Under the pieces are notes generated by a model. That model was not told the DNA's origin. It made no database searches and worked only from the letters and a program-made list of their open reading frames with translations. Of a DNA stretch of 64,000 nucleotides, positions 41,770-63,003 are shown one piece after another; the stretch's first letter is position 1; each line of letters begins with the position of its first letter. The DNA lies in contig NZ_BBXI01000009.1 in NCBI RefSeq assembly GCF_001078375.1, forward strand, positions 62,001 to 126,000, given 5' to 3'. Both the position numbers and the translations under genes were made by a program. The DNA comes from Veillonella tobetsuensis (GTDB lineage: Bacteria > Bacillota > Negativicutes > Veillonellales > Veillonellaceae).

Positions 41770-43014
41770 TTGGAAAAACGTGTAGTAATTACTGGCTTAG
41801 GAGCAGTTACTCCGGTAGGTATCGGTAAAGAAAATTTCTACAATGCGTTATTAGAGGGTAAATCTGGTATTGGCCCGATTACACGCTTTGATGCATCTGA
41901 CTATGCAACACGCATTGCAGGCGAAGTTAAAGATTTTGATATTACTCAATATGGTGTAGACAAAAAAGAAGCTCGCCGTATGGACCGTTCCGTTGAATTC
42001 GCTATTGGTGCAGCCGTTCTTGCCGCTGATGATGCAAAATTGGCACTTGATGAAGAAGATTTGGACCGTTGTGGTACAGTTGTTGGTACTGGTATTGGCG
42101 GTATTGATTCTATTCATGAAGTATATACAACATTGTTTGATAAAGGTCCTGGTCGCGTAAGCCCATTTGCAGTTCCTATGATGATTGCAAATATGTCTTC
42201 TGCACGTGTATCCATTCGCCTTGGCTTGAAAGGTCCTGTTATTACAGACGTAACAGCTTGTACTTCTGGTACTAATGCAATTGGTGATGCATTCCGCATT
42301 ATCCAACGTGGCGATGCAGATATCATGTTTGCTGGTGGTACTGAAGCGGCTGTTTCCCCTGCTGCTGTAGCAGGTTTTGCAGCTATGAAAGCTATGTCTA
42401 CTCGTAACGATGAACCTACAAAAGCTTCTCGTCCATTTGATAAAGACCGCGATGGTTTCGTAATGGGTGAAGGTGCAGGTATCGTTGTACTTGAAGAATT
42501 AGAACATGCTAAAGCTCGTGGTGCTCATATCTATGCTGAAGTTGTAGGTTATGGTACAAATGGTGATGCATACCACATTACTGCTCCAGCTCCAGGTGGT
42601 GTACAAGCTCGTAAATGTATGGAATTAGCAATTAAAGATGCTGGTATCGATCTTAAAGATATTAACTACATCAATGCTCACGGTACATCTACAGGCCTTA
42701 ATGACCAAAATGAAACATTGGCTATTAAAGAATTGTTCGGCGACCATGCAAAAAATATCGCTGTTAACTCTACAAAATCCATGACAGGTCACTTGTTGGG
42801 CGCTGCTGGTGCGATTGAAACTATTGTAATGGCAATGGCAATCGAAACAGGTAAGGTTCATCCAACAATTAACTGTGATAATCCAGATGAAGGTTTAGAT
42901 CTTGATTATGTACGTGAAGGTGCTCGTGATTTACATATTACAGCAGCTCTTTCGAACTCCTTCGGTTTTGGTGGTCATAACGGTACACTTTGTGTTCGCC
43001 GTTATGAAGATTAA
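41770..43014 (+). CDS. fabF: Beta-ketoacyl-ACP synthase II
   Basis: Elongating condensing enzyme. Cys164 in VTACTSGTNAIG, His residues in INAHGTSTGLND and KSMTGHLLGAAGA, and the FGGHNGTL C-terminus. 414 aa, full length. TTG start after AGAGGTGGAA. Its stop overlaps the rnc start (TAATG). Confidence 0.96.
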   Translation: MEKRVVITGLGAVTPVGIGKENFYNALLEGKSGIGPITRFDASDYATRIAGEVKDFDITQYGVDKKEARRMDRSVEFAIGAAVLAADDAKLALDEEDLDRCGTVVGTGIGGIDSIHEVYTTLFDKGPGRVSPFAVPMMIANMSSARVSIRLGLKGPVITDVTACTSGTNAIGDAFRIIQRGDADIMFAGGTEAAVSPAAVAGFAAMKAMSTRNDEPTKASRPFDKDRDGFVMGEGAGIVVLEELEHAKARGAHIYAEVVGYGTNGDAYHITAPAPGGVQARKCMELAIKDAGIDLKDINYINAHGTSTGLNDQNETLAIKELFGDHAKNIAVNSTKSMTGHLLGAAGAIETIVMAMAIETGKVHPTINCDNPDEGLDLDYVREGARDLHITAALSNSFGFGGHNGTLCVRRYED

Positions 43015-43757
43015 TGGGGCGTCACGTATCGCATAAGAATATTATAATGACACAAGCTCGTGAGGATTCTCTTCATGAGCTTGTTAGTCGTTTAGATATA
43101 CCGACGATTGATATTTCAGTTTTAGATTGTGCTTTAACTCATACATCTTATGCGAATGAACATAAAACTAAGTATATTCATCACAATCAGCGATTAGAGT
43201 TTCTTGGTGATGCCGTACTAGATCTTATCATTGGGGAATATCTATTTAAAACACATCCAGATATGTCGGAAGGTAATTTAACGAAAATTAAGGCTGCTAC
43301 AGTTTGTGAAGATTCATTAGCTTCTGTGAGCCGCTCTTTGCGGTTAGGTGATTACTTATTGTTAGGTCATGGAGAGAAATCCTCTGGTGGTAATAATCGA
43401 AAATCTATTCTGGCAGATACCTTCGAATCCTTAATTGGGGCATTATATATTACTACTGACTATCAAACTGTAATGAAGTTTGCTCTTCATCACTTGGCTC
43501 CTAATTTAAAGCAAGCCTTAGAAGGGAAACGTGGTAAAGATTATAAAACATTGTTGCAAGAATTTGTACAACGAGATGGTGATAAACACATCGTGTATAA
43601 TCTTATTGGTGAAGCAGGTCCAGACCATGCAAAAACCTTTACAATGGAGGTATCTATTGATGGCGTAAATTATGAGGCCGGCTCTGGTAAAAGTAAAAAA
43701 ATTGCAGAACAACATGCAGCACAATTGACCCTCGAAAAGTTAATGGCTGCTATATAA
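43014..43757 (+). CDS. rnc: Ribonuclease III
   Basis: Double-strand RNA endonuclease for rRNA and mRNA processing. The signature NQRLEFLGDAVLDLIIGEYL and the ADTFESLIGALY metal site lie in the first 150 residues, followed by a C-terminal dsRNA-binding domain (about 172-247, ending SGKSKKIAEQHAAQLTLEKL). An internal ATG at 43047 is a possible alternative start. Directly after fabF, a common Firmicutes order. Confidence 0.95.
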   Translation: MGRHVSHKNIIMTQAREDSLHELVSRLDIPTIDISVLDCALTHTSYANEHKTKYIHHNQRLEFLGDAVLDLIIGEYLFKTHPDMSEGNLTKIKAATVCEDSLASVSRSLRLGDYLLLGHGEKSSGGNNRKSILADTFESLIGALYITTDYQTVMKFALHHLAPNLKQALEGKRGKDYKTLLQEFVQRDGDKHIVYNLIGEAGPDHAKTFTMEVSIDGVNYEAGSGKSKKIAEQHAAQLTLEKLMAAI

Positions 43758-45077: not shown

Positions 45078-46130
45078 TTAGCCAAAAATATTAGCTACGC
45101 TTTCCGCAGCCTTTAACCTCATCTCATCCGTGTAGTGTATGTAATTGTGAATAACTGTATCTACTGTATCACCAAGTAGGCTTGCTACTGTTTTAACATC
45201 TACATTATTTGCTAATAAAGTAGTAGCGTATGTATGACGGAATGCATGCATTGATTTTTCTGGAATATATTTTTGTAATATTCTGTTAGGGGTAGTAGTA
45301 TTACTCCGCCTAAAGTTAAACAACCTATCTGTTGTACATACATTTTTATATTTTTTCAGTATCTCAAGTAATGCAGGCGGTATTGGTATAGTCCTTATTC
45401 CATTAGTGGATTTAGTAAATGAGTAGTCGAATTGATTATTTCCTAGTGCTACCCATTGTTTGTTTATGGCGATTGTTTTATTTGTGAAGTCTATATCGTT
45501 CCATGTTATAGCTATTATTTCGCCATACCTAGCACCTGTATATCTTGCCACCATGAACAATACGTAGTATAAATAGTTGCCATCCTCTAATTCGTCTAAT
45601 CGTTGTAACTCATCAGCGGTAATAACAGAAACCTTTTTTACATCACGTTGTTTTAACGGCTTAATAGGTTTACAAGGATTTTCACGAACTACTTTGTATG
45701 GAGAGATAGCATAGTTAAATAACATATTTAGCACTCTATATGCTAGGTTTATTGTAGCAACTGCATATACGGAATGATTGAATTGATGTAGTATATCTTG
45801 CGTTGTAATCGTGGATAGTTTTTTATCCTTTAATGCATCAACTACATTGAGTGCGTTCTTGTAAGTGATCAATGTATTCTTTGTAGCGTTGATATGTTCA
45901 CTAATAAATATATTAAAAAACTCAATAAGCGTTATATCTTTTAGACTATCATCAAGTGGACTGGTGATAGTCTTTTTTAGATTGTCTACTATTTCTTGGC
46001 CATAAAGTTTTGCATCTCTTTGTGTAGCGAAACCCTGTTTAGATTTCTGTTTCCACTTATAGCCATCCTTATAGCTAACTATAATCTGAAACCCTTTGTC
46101 TTTTTTTCTGATAGTGAAATTGTATTGCAT
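45078..46130 (-). CDS. int: Tyrosine-recombinase integrase
   Basis: 350-aa phage integrase. N-terminal arm-binding domain (about 1-60, KDKGFQIIVSYKDG), SAM-like core-binding region (60-160) and catalytic domain with Arg in TGARYGEI, HAFRHTYATTLL (HxxR) and the nucleophile Tyr in VIHNYIHYTDEM. Placed at the left end, transcribed toward the chromosome. Confidence 0.94.
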   Translation of the reverse strand: MQYNFTIRKKDKGFQIIVSYKDGYKWKQKSKQGFATQRDAKLYGQEIVDNLKKTITSPLDDSLKDITLIEFFNIFISEHINATKNTLITYKNALNVVDALKDKKLSTITTQDILHQFNHSVYAVATINLAYRVLNMLFNYAISPYKVVRENPCKPIKPLKQRDVKKVSVITADELQRLDELEDGNYLYYVLFMVARYTGARYGEIIAITWNDIDFTNKTIAINKQWVALGNNQFDYSFTKSTNGIRTIPIPPALLEILKKYKNVCTTDRLFNFRRSNTTTPNRILQKYIPEKSMHAFRHTYATTLLANNVDVKTVASLLGDTVDTVIHNYIHYTDEMRLKAAESVANIFG

Positions 46131-56338: not shown

Positions 56339-57616
56339 ATGAATAAATTAGTATTAGCAACAATGATTATGGGTACAATTGGCGGTAATGTATTAGCAAG
56401 TGATGTTGTAACAGGGCCAGTAGAGCCTAACACACAAGCGCCAGTAGTAAGCGGTTACAATTCTGTAGCCGTAGGGGTGAATACAGTAGTTACTGGAACA
56501 AATACAATCGTTCTAGGCCGTGATAATAAAGCAACAGGAAATGATAGCGTTGTAATCGGTGGTGGCAACGGAACAATCGAAGCAGACCAAGCAAGCGTAA
56601 TTGGGTATAACAACTATGTAGGCAACAATAAAGAACAAACTGTATTAGGTGCTAACAATACAGTAGATAATCAAGGTGCGGTAGTAGTAGGCACGCATAG
56701 TGTAGTGCGTGGAATTGATGCAGTAGTCATTGGTAATAATGCATCAGCACCTATTCAAAATTCAGTAGCGATTGGCACAAACAGTCAAACGGATAACCCT
56801 GTAGGTGTTCGACAAGTTGTATTAAATGGGGTAACTCACGTGTTCGCAGGTGAAAATCCTAATAGCGTAGTGTCATTTGGTAGCAAGAAAAGCGACACAT
56901 ACAGTGGGATTAGTAACTACAACAGACAGTTACATAATGTAAGTGCTGGCCGTGTAGACCCTAGCAGTTTAGACGCGGTAAACGGCAGTCAACTGTTCGC
57001 AGCGTATGACGAAATTGAAACAAGCGGAACACACATTGCCAAACTTCAAAAAGATGTGAATTGTTTAGACAAACGAGTTACACGAAATACTACGAATATC
57101 TCTAATTTAACCTCTAAGGTGGATAATGGATTTACAACGATTAATAACACTCTAACCGCTACAAACAAGCGTGTGGGGCAAAATAGCCAAGCCATTTTGA
57201 ACAATACGGATAGAATTAATAGCCATGAAACACGTATTACGGATTTAGAACGTAATACAGTAGGTCAAATCTCAAATGTGATGCATGAAGTGGCAAAAGC
57301 TGGTGCATCTAATGCAGCATTAAGTGCATTGCACTATTTAGGCTACAATTCTGATGATAAATTAACATTTGCGGTAGGCTACGGACACTACAAAAACGCA
57401 AATGATGTAGCCCTCGGTATGTTCTATGCACCAACTGAGCATGTAATGTTTAGCTTGGGTACTACATTAGCCAATAAGATGATTAATGCAGGTGTATCCT
57501 TTAGACTTGGTAAAGGTAGTGAATACGAAACTAACCATAAAGGTAAAATCAAAGAACTTGAAACCTTGGTTACTAAATTAGTAGCGGAAGTTGAAGCATT
57601 GAAAGCTGGTAAATAA
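56339..57616 (+). CDS. Trimeric autotransporter adhesin (YadA family)
   Basis: 425 aa, secreted across two membranes. Signal peptide 1-20 (ends NVLAS). Head 38-150: repeated SVAIG/NxVVIG-type left-handed beta-roll strands. Neck 196-228: RQLHNVSAGRVDPSSLDAVN GSQLFAA, highly conserved in YadA proteins. Coiled-coil stalk 229-320 with TTNI/TDRINSHETRI heptads. C-terminal anchor barrel about 322-392 (ALSALHYLGY, TFAVGYGHY, GVSFRLG). A 33-residue coiled-coil tail (KIKELETLVTKLVAEVEALK) follows the barrel, which normally ends the protein. AAAAGGAGA at 56322-56330 fixes the start. It lies among prophage middle genes and does not look structural; host adhesion is the likely role. Confidence 0.92.
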   Translation: MNKLVLATMIMGTIGGNVLASDVVTGPVEPNTQAPVVSGYNSVAVGVNTVVTGTNTIVLGRDNKATGNDSVVIGGGNGTIEADQASVIGYNNYVGNNKEQTVLGANNTVDNQGAVVVGTHSVVRGIDAVVIGNNASAPIQNSVAIGTNSQTDNPVGVRQVVLNGVTHVFAGENPNSVVSFGSKKSDTYSGISNYNRQLHNVSAGRVDPSSLDAVNGSQLFAAYDEIETSGTHIAKLQKDVNCLDKRVTRNTTNISNLTSKVDNGFTTINNTLTATNKRVGQNSQAILNNTDRINSHETRITDLERNTVGQISNVMHEVAKAGASNAALSALHYLGYNSDDKLTFAVGYGHYKNANDVALGMFYAPTEHVMFSLGTTLANKMINAGVSFRLGKGSEYETNHKGKIKELETLVTKLVAEVEALKAGK

Positions 57617-59290: not shown

Positions 59291-59749
59291 TTGAATGAAC
59301 CGACAAAAAGTGAAAAGAGATTAATTAGTAGTGCTAGAAAATACCTTGAGCCTGTAAAGACAGTTGATGAGCAAATAAAGTCGATTGCAAAAGAAATAGA
59401 GCAACTACGATGTAACATTACATCGATTAGTGCTATTGATTACTCAAAAGATAGAGTAAGTGGTGGCGGTGTGCCGTGTGGATTAGAAAACAGCGTGGCA
59501 AGGTTCATCGACACGGAGAAGGAACAACGCAGACGGATTGATGAATTGAGTGAGTACAAGTGCGATGTAATCAATACAATCAATAGTCTAAGTGAAGAAA
59601 TAGGCGGTACAATGTTACGTTATGAATACCTGCTTGGAATGTCAGCTAAACAAGCACATTCGGTTTTTGAGAACCAATTCAACGAAAGACAAGCTATGAG
59701 GTATAAAGAGAAAGCATTAATTGAAATAGGCAGGTTGAAATGTCAGTAA
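59291..59749 (+). CDS. ArpU/DUF1492-type late transcription regulator
   Basis: 152 aa; coiled-coil N-terminus, then a sigma-region-4-like HTH in the C-terminal 60 residues (EIGGTMLRYEYLLGMSAKQA, VFENQFNERQAMRYKEKAL). This family usually sits just before terminase genes and turns on late transcription. TTG start. Its last codons overlap a decamer repeat array. Confidence 0.75.
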   Translation: MNEPTKSEKRLISSARKYLEPVKTVDEQIKSIAKEIEQLRCNITSISAIDYSKDRVSGGGVPCGLENSVARFIDTEKEQRRRIDELSEYKCDVINTINSLSEEIGGTMLRYEYLLGMSAKQAHSVFENQFNERQAMRYKEKALIEIGRLKCQ

Positions 59750-59777
59750 ATGTCATGAAATGTCAGTAAATGTCAGT
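59738..59777 (+). repeat. Four-copy AAATGTCAGT decamer array
   Basis: AAATGTCAGT at 59738, 59758 and 59768 and a variant AAATGTCATG at 59748: four abutting 10-base units, one helical turn each, across the stop codon of the regulator gene and ahead of the structured gap. Confidence 0.85.
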
Positions 59778-60393
59778 ATATATGTATAAAAACATATAGT
59801 AGAATATAAGGTGTAAGAGTTGCCAATGAGCAATTCTAAAAAACTAAATAGCAATTGAGGTGCGGTTTTATATTTTGTATTTGAAAATCAACGAGTATTG
59901 TTTCTAAGTCATTACAATCTATATTATTTTCTAACTGCACCGCACCTCTTATATTGCATTTTGTAAACTAATACCGCACATATAGTTCTTTCCAATATTG
60001 CAAATAATACCTATACGTTTCATGAGATAAAACCTTAAGCGAAAAAATGTTACATACTACAAACAACTGGCGGTATTAGTTTAGAGAGTGCAATTGCATA
60101 CTGAAAACTAAAGCTATATATGTTCCATTAAGAACCGAGTATTATTCGGGAGTTAGACAGAGGGAGCTAACCACGATTACAATTCATATGCTCGTGTTGG
60201 TGAATAGCCAACTATATAACTTTGGTTTTGAGTATGCAATAATTGCTGAAAAGTGAATATCGTATTTTGTTTTGGTTACGAACTAGAACATGTGCATATG
60301 TTTTGACTACGTGTCAGAACGTGTGTAAGCGTTGACTATGCGGTATTCAGTTTTGAATAATTATTACAATACAAATGAATAAAACTATCACAT
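59778..60393 (+). ncRNA. Candidate large structured noncoding RNA
   Basis: No credible gene occupies this stretch, yet it holds consecutive long-range helices: 59857-59866 with 59939-59948 (10 bp), 59964-59977 with 60070-60083 (14 bp, perfect), 60094-60120 with 60213-60239 (27 positions, two mismatches, one G-U), and 60249-60262 with 60341-60354 (13 bp with a G-G internal mismatch). The third domain encloses small hairpins 60135-60149, 60152-60171, 60172-60196 and 60196-60212. A terminator follows immediately. Length, architecture and prophage setting resemble ROOL/GOLLD RNAs. Identity is unproven; exact 5' end unknown. Confidence 0.7.
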
Positions 60394-60429
60394 AATGAGG
60401 TATATCCACGGCGATATATCTCATTTTTT
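60394..60429 (+). terminator. Intrinsic terminator closing the structured region
   Basis: 13-bp stem with one G-U (60394-60406 with 60413-60425), CACGGC loop, six Ts. It contains the first ATG (60395) of the following frame, so that ATG is not the start. Confidence 0.88.
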
Positions 60430-60457
60430 GCATAAAGTTATCAAAAAGGGAGAAATG

Positions 60458-60649
60458 ATGACTGATATTATGTGTTGTAAGCGTAAATGCTTGAACAACA
60501 AGAAAGGGAGATGTACGGCTAATGTCATTGAGTATGACGGATTATGCCAAACGTACATTACACAGGGGAACGCAAGCAAAAGTGCATGCGGTTTGTGTGT
60601 ACGATCTAATGGGAAATTAAAGCGGAAAGGTGGTGAAGTACTAAAATGA
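60458..60649 (+). CDS. Small Cys-rich protein (DUF1540-like)
   Basis: 63 aa with eight Cys arranged like a DUF1540 metal-binding protein (MCCKRKCLNNKKGRCTANVI then CQTYI...CGLC). ATG 60458 or 60455 after AAGGGAG. Unknown function. Confidence 0.65.
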   Translation: MTDIMCCKRKCLNNKKGRCTANVIEYDGLCQTYITQGNASKSACGLCVRSNGKLKRKGGEVLK

Positions 60650-61136: not shown

Positions 61137-61577
61137 ATGGCAGATGCTAACACCTTAACAGAAAAAGAACGTATATTTGCAGATGAGTATATCAAGACTA
61201 CCAATGCGACACAGAGTGCAATTAAAGCTGGATATTCAGAGAAAAGTGCATCAAGCAAGGGAAGTCAATTATTAAGAAAAGTAAAGGTACGTCAATATAT
61301 AGACGATGTAATGGAAAAGCGTAGTAAAAACACAATCGCAACTGCTGATGAAGTGTTGGAGTACCTAACCAAAGTGATGAATGGTGAAGAGAAAGATGCA
61401 TTTGGTTTAGATATATCAATTGCAGATAGAACTAAAGCAGCCGAATTGTTAGGTAAACGGCACATGTTATTTACCGAAAAAGTAAAACTTGATGCAGAAA
61501 TAGAGATTGATATTTCAGACCGCATGAAGCAAGCAAGGGTAAAATCAGATGAAGTACAACAAGGCACAACTGATTGA
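61137..61577 (+). CDS. terS: Terminase small subunit
   Basis: 146 aa. The N-terminal HTH (LTEKERIFADEYIKTTNATQ then SAIKAGYSEKSASSKGSQLL) is the Terminase_2 signature; the C-terminal helices oligomerise. Recognises the packaging site. Overlaps the large subunit by 29 bases. Confidence 0.92.
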   Translation: MADANTLTEKERIFADEYIKTTNATQSAIKAGYSEKSASSKGSQLLRKVKVRQYIDDVMEKRSKNTIATADEVLEYLTKVMNGEEKDAFGLDISIADRTKAAELLGKRHMLFTEKVKLDAEIEIDISDRMKQARVKSDEVQQGTTD

Positions 61578-63003
61578 TGCGTTGGGTTCATTTACGCATG
61601 ATCCATTAGGCTTTACATACTTTTCTTTTCCTTGGGGTGAAAAAGGAACACCACTTGAAAACTTTGACGGCCCTGATGAGTGGCAAGTTGAAACCTTTAA
61701 GAAAATAGGTGAAGAACTACGTAAGGGCAAATCGTTGGCAAAAGCAATTCAAATTGCGGTAGCATCTGGACATGGTATTGGAAAGTCAGCGTTTTCATCA
61801 ATTTTAATTCTATTTGCAATTGCTACACATGAGAATACAAGGGGAGTAGTAACCGCTAATACTGATACACAGTTAAAGTCTAAGACTTGGGCGGAACTTA
61901 ACAAATGGTACAACCTGTTCATAGGTAAGGAACTATTTACTTATACGGCTACCGCATTGTTTAGTGCTGATAAACAGTATGAGAAAACATGGCGGATAGA
62001 TGCTATTCCGTGGAGTGAAAGCAACCCTGAAGCATTCGCAGGCCTACATAATCAAGGTAATCGAATACTTATCATCTTTGATGAAGCATCCGCTATTTCC
62101 GATAAGATTTGGGAAGTAACAGAGGGTGCGTTAACAGATAAGGAAACCGAGATTATATGGTGTGTGTTCGGAAACCCTACACGTAACAGTGGCAGGTTTA
62201 GAGAATGTTTCAGAAAGCATCGTGCATATTGGACTACCTATCAGATTGATAGCCGTACTGTAAAAATCTCAAACAAAGCGAAATTACAAGAATGGGTTGA
62301 TATTCATGGTGAGGATAGCGACTTTGTAAAGGTGCGTGTAAGAGGAATATTCCCTAGTGCATCTGATACTCAATTCATATCCGCATCAATTGTAGATGAA
62401 GCACAAAAGAGAGTGTATAAAGTAGGGCAATTCGATAATTTACCTACTATTATCGGTGTAGACCCTGCATGGACTGGTGGCGATACATTAGAAATCGTGA
62501 TGCGACAAGGCTATTCGATGAAGTGTTTGGCAACAATCGAAAAGAATGACGATGATATGCGCATGGCTAACCTCATTGCACAATTTGAGGATGAATACAA
62601 AGCGGATGCGGTATTCATTGACCAGGGGTACGGAACAGGTATTTATAGTATTGGTAAGTCGATGGGTAGAAAATGGCGGTTAGTTGCCTTTGGTGGTGCA
62701 TCGCCTAACAATATGTACCTCAATATGCGTGCGTACATGTGGGGCGAAATGAAAGAGTGGTTAAAAGAGGGCGGTGCAATTCCTAATGAGCAAGGATTGT
62801 ACGATGACCTCGTAGGGCCAGAAGCGATCATTGATAAAAACGGCCGTATCCAACTGGAAAGCAAAAAAGACATGAAAGAACGAGGGTTACCATCACCGAA
62901 TAAAGGCGATGCATTAGCCTTGACCTTTGCATTTAGGGTCACTAAAAAAATAAATGGCAATCATAGAAGAGTAGCGAATACAGAGTACAAACCATTTGGG
63001 TAA
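61549..63003 (+). CDS. terL: Terminase large subunit
   Basis: 484 aa packaging motor. Walker A GHGIGKS at 74-80, Walker B ILIIFDEASA, coupling motif in WCVFGNPTRNSGRF, and a nuclease domain with VGVDPAWTGGDTLEIV and AVFIDQGYGTG carrying acidic metal ligands. Typical of P22-/podovirus-like TerL groups. Confidence 0.94.
   Translation: MKYNKAQLIDALGSFTHDPLGFTYFSFPWGEKGTPLENFDGPDEWQVETFKKIGEELRKGKSLAKAIQIAVASGHGIGKSAFSSILILFAIATHENTRGVVTANTDTQLKSKTWAELNKWYNLFIGKELFTYTATALFSADKQYEKTWRIDAIPWSESNPEAFAGLHNQGNRILIIFDEASAISDKIWEVTEGALTDKETEIIWCVFGNPTRNSGRFRECFRKHRAYWTTYQIDSRTVKISNKAKLQEWVDIHGEDSDFVKVRVRGIFPSASDTQFISASIVDEAQKRVYKVGQFDNLPTIIGVDPAWTGGDTLEIVMRQGYSMKCLATIEKNDDDMRMANLIAQFEDEYKADAVFIDQGYGTGIYSIGKSMGRKWRLVAFGGASPNNMYLNMRAYMWGEMKEWLKEGGAIPNEQGLYDDLVGPEAIIDKNGRIQLESKKDMKERGLPSPNKGDALALTFAFRVTKKINGNHRRVANTEYKPFG

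Follow-up and report, generated by a model that had tools for sequence, protein, structure and literature searches.

The late leader of a Veillonella prophage

The window, i.e., the whole stretch of 64,000 nucleotides of Veillonella tobetsuensis that was analyzed, harbors a prophage in which the gene of a late transcription regulator (59291-59749, + strand; 152 aa; PHROG 36 transcriptional regulator, phrog_36, E=1.4e-10) is separated by 705 bases, from its stop to the next start, from the first late gene, which encodes a 64-aa cysteine-rich protein of PHROG 33034 (60455-60649, +). The late genes that follow are closely spaced (starts at 60455, 60646, 60786, 61137, and 61549), the last two being the terminase small subunit gene terS (61137-61577, +; Pfam: PF03592) and the large subunit gene terL (61549-63003, +), the product of which shares 55-56% identity with the TerL of epsilon15 and related phages. 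In the ORF list, no frame of at least 40 aa falls inside 59750-60394 on either strand, and the 84-aa ORF beginning at 60395 represents the gene for the 64-aa protein with a 5′ extension. Both the gene-free gap of about 600 bases and its late-gene neighborhood within a prophage, as originally predicted, were therefore borne out. Homologs of the regulator sit ahead of late genes in related prophages, and relatives of the gene for the 64-aa protein are present in Veillonella sp. VA139 and VA142; these two proteins served as baits for the collection of the related leaders described below. Elsewhere in the prophage, at 56339-57616, there is a trimeric autotransporter adhesin-like gene, whose YadA head and anchor score above the Pfam cut-off and whose stalk scores slightly under it.

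From 5′ to 3′, the region opens with four direct repeats of ATGTCAGTAA type and 10-bp period (59740-59779, +), recognized by eye as probable regulator sites upstream of a late promoter, for which the probable −10 element TAGAAT (59800-59805, +) was assigned by eye from sequence only. Repeats of the same period and other sequence occupy this place in L012, L010, L013, and L035, and a TATAAT-like sequence stands where the −10 element is expected in a few related loci, both also by eye; late transcription would start near 59812. A 5′ leader hairpin (59816-59837, +), found in the minimum free energy structure and identical in sequence in L005 and L004, precedes module A (59857-59948, +), in which a 10-bp helix GAGGTGCGGT/ACCGCACCTC (arms 59857-59866/59939-59948), kept in L005 and L004, closes a large loop and bears no G.G signature. 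Next come three maturation-type stems. Module B (59953-60094, +; arms 59953-59977/60070-60094) has 10 outer pairs, a G59963.G60084 mismatch, and 14 inner pairs around a 92-nt insert; module C (60093-60240, +; arms 60093-60120/60213-60240) has 10 bp, G60103.G60230, 10 bp, one more mismatch, and 6 bp enclosing a structured insert; and module D (60238-60365, +; arms 60238-60265/60338-60365) has G60248.G60355, two further mismatches, and a two-hairpin insert. An intrinsic terminator (60394-60429, +; z −5.2), with a core GTATATCCACGGCGATATA common to related phages, ends the leader. The module junctions at 60085-60102 (GTGCAATTGCAT) and 60231-60247 (ATGCAATAATTGC) are near-palindromic, so that adjacent modules could also pair mutually or between molecules.

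The + strand of 59778-60429 folds to −186 kcal/mol, against −131.7 ± 6.2 kcal/mol for 20 dinucleotide shuffles (z −8.8, with 0 of 20 as good), and the − strand is weaker (z −5.5). Folded singly, modules A, B, C, and D reached z scores of −4.2, −5.2, −5.6, and −7.0, with none of 200 shuffles as good; the four long-range helices and the intrinsic terminator were as originally predicted. Projections of the complete fold were mixed. On moving from L012 to L073, 162 of 223 pairs were unchanged, 21 were kept despite one-sided changes, 4 showed double changes, 3 were gapped, and 33 were broken, the last number being due partly to misalignment; from the window to L005, 153 of 234 pairs were unchanged, with 8 one-sided changes, no double changes, 7 broken pairs, and 66 gapped. 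Paired sites had substitution rates scarcely below those of unpaired sites (0.144 against 0.166 and 0.044 against 0.056). These mixed outcomes lend support to the modules and not to a single overall fold. Within module C, six one-sided changes between the window and L005 preserve pairing and one breaks it. An outer helix for the whole leader, AGCAAUU/AAUUGCU, was discarded, as its 3′ half is missing from L005. A second domain, AGGGYGRGY...RCYYRCCCT, forms nine of nine pairs in all four of L012, L073, L013, and L029, with three pairs changing on both sides and with two of five measures unremarkable against shuffles (26/500 and 434/500).

Module stems and their turnover among related leaders

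From the outside inward, the maturation-type stem consists of an outer helix of about 8-10 pairs, a U-A pair, a G.G mismatch, and an inner helix. It closes modules B-D, which span about 130-150 nt each, and is also present in five leaders of related loci (L005, L012, L073, L010, and L013). The G.G with its outer U-A was present in all 14 modules from the window, L005, L012, L073, L010, L013, and L029, of which nine are clearly distinct and the others orthologs, and it lay about 8-15 positions into the helix, counted from the outer end. Across six leaders, all 11 helices with a score of at least 17 and a loop of at least 40 carried it, some of them with one mismatch more. In 12 modules taken together, 96.2% of the cells pair and both partners vary in 17 of 22 pairs, compared with 10.3 ± 1.6 in shuffles (0 of 500 reach the observed value), figures that are biased upward since the arms were found by complementarity, and that come from modules which are not independent, being drawn from the leaders of related phages and including duplicates or orthologs. 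Sliding the partner arms by 1-3 columns lowered pairing to 33-45%. Covarying pairs among homologs, by which the original prediction was to be judged, are accordingly present for the module stems. G-U cells outnumber A-C cells by 20 to 3 in the nine distinct modules and module C, itself part of the training set, scored 107 bits on the + strand against 29 on the − strand, both of which point to RNA. The linear motif UGAAAAC is intact in four of the nine distinct modules; among the five with an altered motif, pairing is fully kept by changes in the other arm in B, L012 M1, and L010 M1, mostly in L013, and not in D.

Scans for the signature were informative at strict settings, and only these were used as support. 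With the strict signature, B and C were the matches of the window and none arose in 300 shuffled windows; the loose scan (at least 14 pairs) was not significant, with 2 in the window against a mean of 0.93 across 60 shuffles. A position-blind scan for helices with exactly one mismatch (score of at least 16) gave three on the + strand of the window, B and C among them. In 18 further phage loci it gave four, of which three are modules of L073; the two helices outside modules had A.A and T.C mismatches. Not recovered were D, the L029 module, and the two modules of L007; those of L029 and L007 contain a second mismatch or a smaller number of strong pairs. A leave-out covariance model, trained on B, C, L012 M1, and L073 M2 and M3 with L010, L013/L029, and D excluded, was run on 25 sources (221 kb) and recovered L007 M2 (E=6.6e-5), the modules of L029, L013, and L030 (0.02-0.06), and L007 M1 (0.1); its nine matches up to E=1 comprise five left-out modules, two training modules, and their antisense. 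Module D was missed by this model and reached 10.7 bits with filters off, and a first module model had missed D and L073 M2, both within its own training set. In 380 genomes of the class, searched with strict filters (8 candidates scored in the genomes shown), the module model matched in three (G000, G005, and G010), all of them leaders already found otherwise; in 28 genomes of the family, with 114 candidates each, it matched in four, the fourth (L214, E=0.25) being without the module fold.

Comparison of the related leaders revealed that modules come and go as units. L003 is identical across 721 bases and L004 is a partial copy of the window leader, and L005, which is 93% alike, lacks about 60243-60366, i.e., module D. 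A different leader occupies the same place in L012 (genome G010) and L073 (a viral contig), which are 88% alike in their main block and of which L073 has one module beyond the count of L012. Further distinct leaders were found in L013 and L029 and in L010, which is on the same contig as L007; L013 and L030 represent the same prophage type. Overall, the leaders hold one to three maturation-type stems, and the inserts between the module arms show little common sequence across phages, which leaves a common insert function unsupported. Some inserts contain CU-rich stretches that could pair with Shine-Dalgarno sequences. Other phages have in this slot a short leader only, or predicted small ORFs (L033-L035, L027, and L014). 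This replacement by predicted ORFs, together with the changing number of modules, fits a cargo slot. In L010, two oppositely oriented predicted ORFs (1750-2067 and 2128-2283) are inserted in the same slot.

Among 14 genomes of the genus, the leader DNA matched in two, the window's own and another only over the terminator end. Neither blastn with the leaders of the window and of L073 nor tblastn with the regulator and the 64-aa protein produced a match in 50,697 phage records. The slots downstream of the regulator were inspected at 55 loci, a number that includes near copies, and in 38 of them the first terminator-like hairpin is 40-170 nt downstream of the regulator stop and, in 37, precedes the first called ORF. 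Such hairpins possibly reflect a general arrangement of promoter, short leader, and terminator, or the end of the regulator transcript.

Precursor stems of the host and RNase III

The arms of the phage modules have counterparts in the stems that bracket stable RNAs of the host. The sequence TTGAAAACTRRA lies about 135-150 nt ahead of all nine complete 16S genes and has 27 copies across four genomes; in the genome of the window, where the full 16S gene is not assembled, two contig ends carry 16S starts near it. The pre-16S stalk of the genus pairs CAGATCTTTGAAAACTGAACAATG with CATTGTTYGGTTTTGAGAGATCTG around a G.G in all seven readable operons (8 of 12 loci, from G005, G009, and G010, less one with a masked trailer). 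Across the class, for which 30 of 56 places were fetched (2 partial, 2 without helix, and 26 with helices), the G.G is present in 21 of the 26 helices, and the five without the exact signature come from G028 and from two of the three of G033, all within genus g14. The 5′ arms of the modules also resemble the rrn leader sequence TTGAAAACTGAA.

Two host helices with the signature in the loose scan (L147 and L151) surround the SRP RNA, which prompted a survey of pre-4.5S stems. The U-A/G.G combination was found in the pre-4.5S SRP RNA stem of all six genomes of the genus, the window's own (L202) included, and in these genomes (L197, L199, L201, L202, L204, and L206) the conserved G.G stands on an extended stem. 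Over the 24 genomes of the class that were examined, 12 have U-A/G.G, in seven others a differently flanked G.G lies in the outer part, and five have none there, so that a G.G with various flanks occurs in 19. The 23S stalk of the genus, readable at two of four loci, has in both cases a G-C pair at this place and U.U elsewhere, without the signature.

The proposed processing enzyme is the host RNase III, encoded outside the prophage (43014-43757, +; 247 aa; PF00636, E=2.3e-27); a second, shorter PF00636 protein of the host is perhaps Mini-III. Some 1.3 kb separate the RNase III gene from the probable integrase gene of the prophage (45078-46130, by eye), which is probably coincidence. In Bacillus subtilis, excerpts of published reports describe a role for RNase III in rRNA metabolism and scRNA maturation (PMC3531473) and cuts inside long-range intramolecular duplexes (PMC11780869); the portions of the B. 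subtilis RNase III literature consulted do not mention a G.G as a determinant. Given the resemblance of the module stems to the precursor stems of host rRNA and SRP RNA, the phage may well use the RNA-processing enzymes of its host to produce small RNAs of its own.

A proposed modular late leader and its alternatives

We favor, with moderate confidence, the reading that the gap is a late-operon leader built of separate modules, in which tandem small RNAs are bracketed by mimics of host maturation stems and are probably cut by RNase III. Under this model, the regulator would bind the 10-bp repeats and switch on late transcription, and the polymerase would transcribe the 5′ hairpin, module A, and modules B-D before reaching the terminator, beyond which read-through or antitermination would be needed to supply the late genes. 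The modules would fold while emerging, and host RNase III would most likely cut each stem near the G.G, thereby, in the late phase, liberating products of about 105-130 nt and detaching the late mRNA from its leader. The released RNAs may be stable and may act in trans; alternatively, the stems may do no more than trim the leader or keep RNase III occupied.

That last possibility, in which the cutting step is shared with the preferred model and the inserts are filler, appears unlikely, if less so than the other alternatives considered here. The poor conservation of inserts between phages agrees with it, and phage RNase III sites are known, such as R1.1 of T7 (PMC8708148, consulted in part); nevertheless, a single stem would suffice to trim an mRNA, and the leaders keep up to three, and in module C all but one of the seven changes at paired positions between the window and L005 preserve pairing. 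Rather improbable is the single large ornate noncoding RNA in the style of ROOL or GOLLD, perhaps of a new class, which would act as a whole and might self-assemble, as ROOL does into a homo-oligomeric RNA cage. The length of about 620 nt, the strong overall fold, the prophage late region, and the intrinsic terminator would suit such an RNA, and the part of the original prediction that placed a large structured RNA near the late genes of a prophage was supported. Its membership in ROOL or GOLLD was not: Rfam produced no match at gathering score in the whole window; in the gap, a cut-off of E=10 admitted five matches at chance level, neither ROOL nor GOLLD among them, and five related loci gave none at a cut-off of E=1. 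ROOL and GOLLD are, moreover, often near tRNA islands according to excerpts of PMC12286853, and the window has no tRNA genes. Against one giant RNA speak also the gain and loss of whole modules between loci about 88-93% alike (L005 without D; L073 exceeding L012 by one) and the loss in L005 of the 3′ half of the helix enclosing modules A-C.

A comparably low probability is given to a cis-acting leader for processive antitermination, by which polymerase would pass the terminator as with the 6S leader of lambda and Q, HK022 put, or capture of the rRNA boxA complex. The order of probable promoter (by eye), leader, clear terminator, and late genes speaks for it, as do the terminator-like hairpins that follow the regulator in most slots and the likeness of the module 5′ arms to the rrn leader motif, which we take to be boxA. 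However, some of those hairpins may simply end the regulator transcript, promoters were recognized by eye in few loci, and L010 and L013 have a module after a terminator; since a short leader does the same in many relatives, modules are not needed for the arrangement. The boxA version was weakened, given that the 5′ arms do not conserve a linear box and that their pairing is mostly compensated by the other arm. Least probable by far is a DNA-level element, such as a packaging or recombination site with cruciforms: proximity to terS, the long inverted repeats, and the near-palindromic module junctions would agree with one, but the strand bias in G-U cells and in the score of module C, and the occurrence of the same signature in host precursor RNAs, argue against it.

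Returning to the modular leader with host-like stems, the pre-16S stalk and the pre-4.5S stem of the host genus share with the modules the same outer helix of about 9-10 bp, U-A pair, G.G, and long inner helix, and the 16S stalk has UGAAAAC/GUUUUGA in common with several of them; in contrast, the phage stems enclose 43-95 nt between their arms, whereas the host stems enclose 1.5 kb or the SRP hairpin, and they occur up to three in tandem, unlike the precursor stems of the host. Bacillus phage SP82 also has RNase III processing sites, and with these and R1.1 of T7 the leader shares RNase III-type duplexes in a phage transcript, cutting being predicted here; the repeated modules, the host precursor signature, the structured inserts, and the leader position set it apart. 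It resembles ROOL and GOLLD as a large noncoding RNA of prophages and differs from them in its variable number of modules, the lack of an Rfam match, and the lack of a nearby tRNA. As in the lambda PR′ 6S leader with Q and in HK022 put, leader RNAs of antitermination, a leader and a terminator lie between the late promoter, here a probable one, and the late genes, but the window leader is far longer, and the arrangement persists in many related phages whose leaders have no modules.

Among the papers listed in the literature searches (titles, abstract openings, and some passages), we found neither a phage array of this kind nor a phage copy of pre-rRNA stems. We propose tentatively that these leaders constitute a new class of phage RNA, with host-stem-mimicking modules gained and lost as units, in which enzymes that serve ribosome and SRP biogenesis would mature an array of small phage RNAs, or be diverted from host RNA, in the late phase, and that the G.G is a general RNase III maturation mark in the class. 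For ROOL and GOLLD, which among large phage RNAs are the best known, the functions are described as unknown (excerpts of PMC12286853); for the leader examined here, the shared precursor-stem signature offers a mechanism that can be tested for an otherwise unexplained RNA. If the proposal is true, phages use the maturation pathway of the most essential RNAs of their host, and a G.G mismatch may mark RNase III maturation sites across much of a bacterial class.
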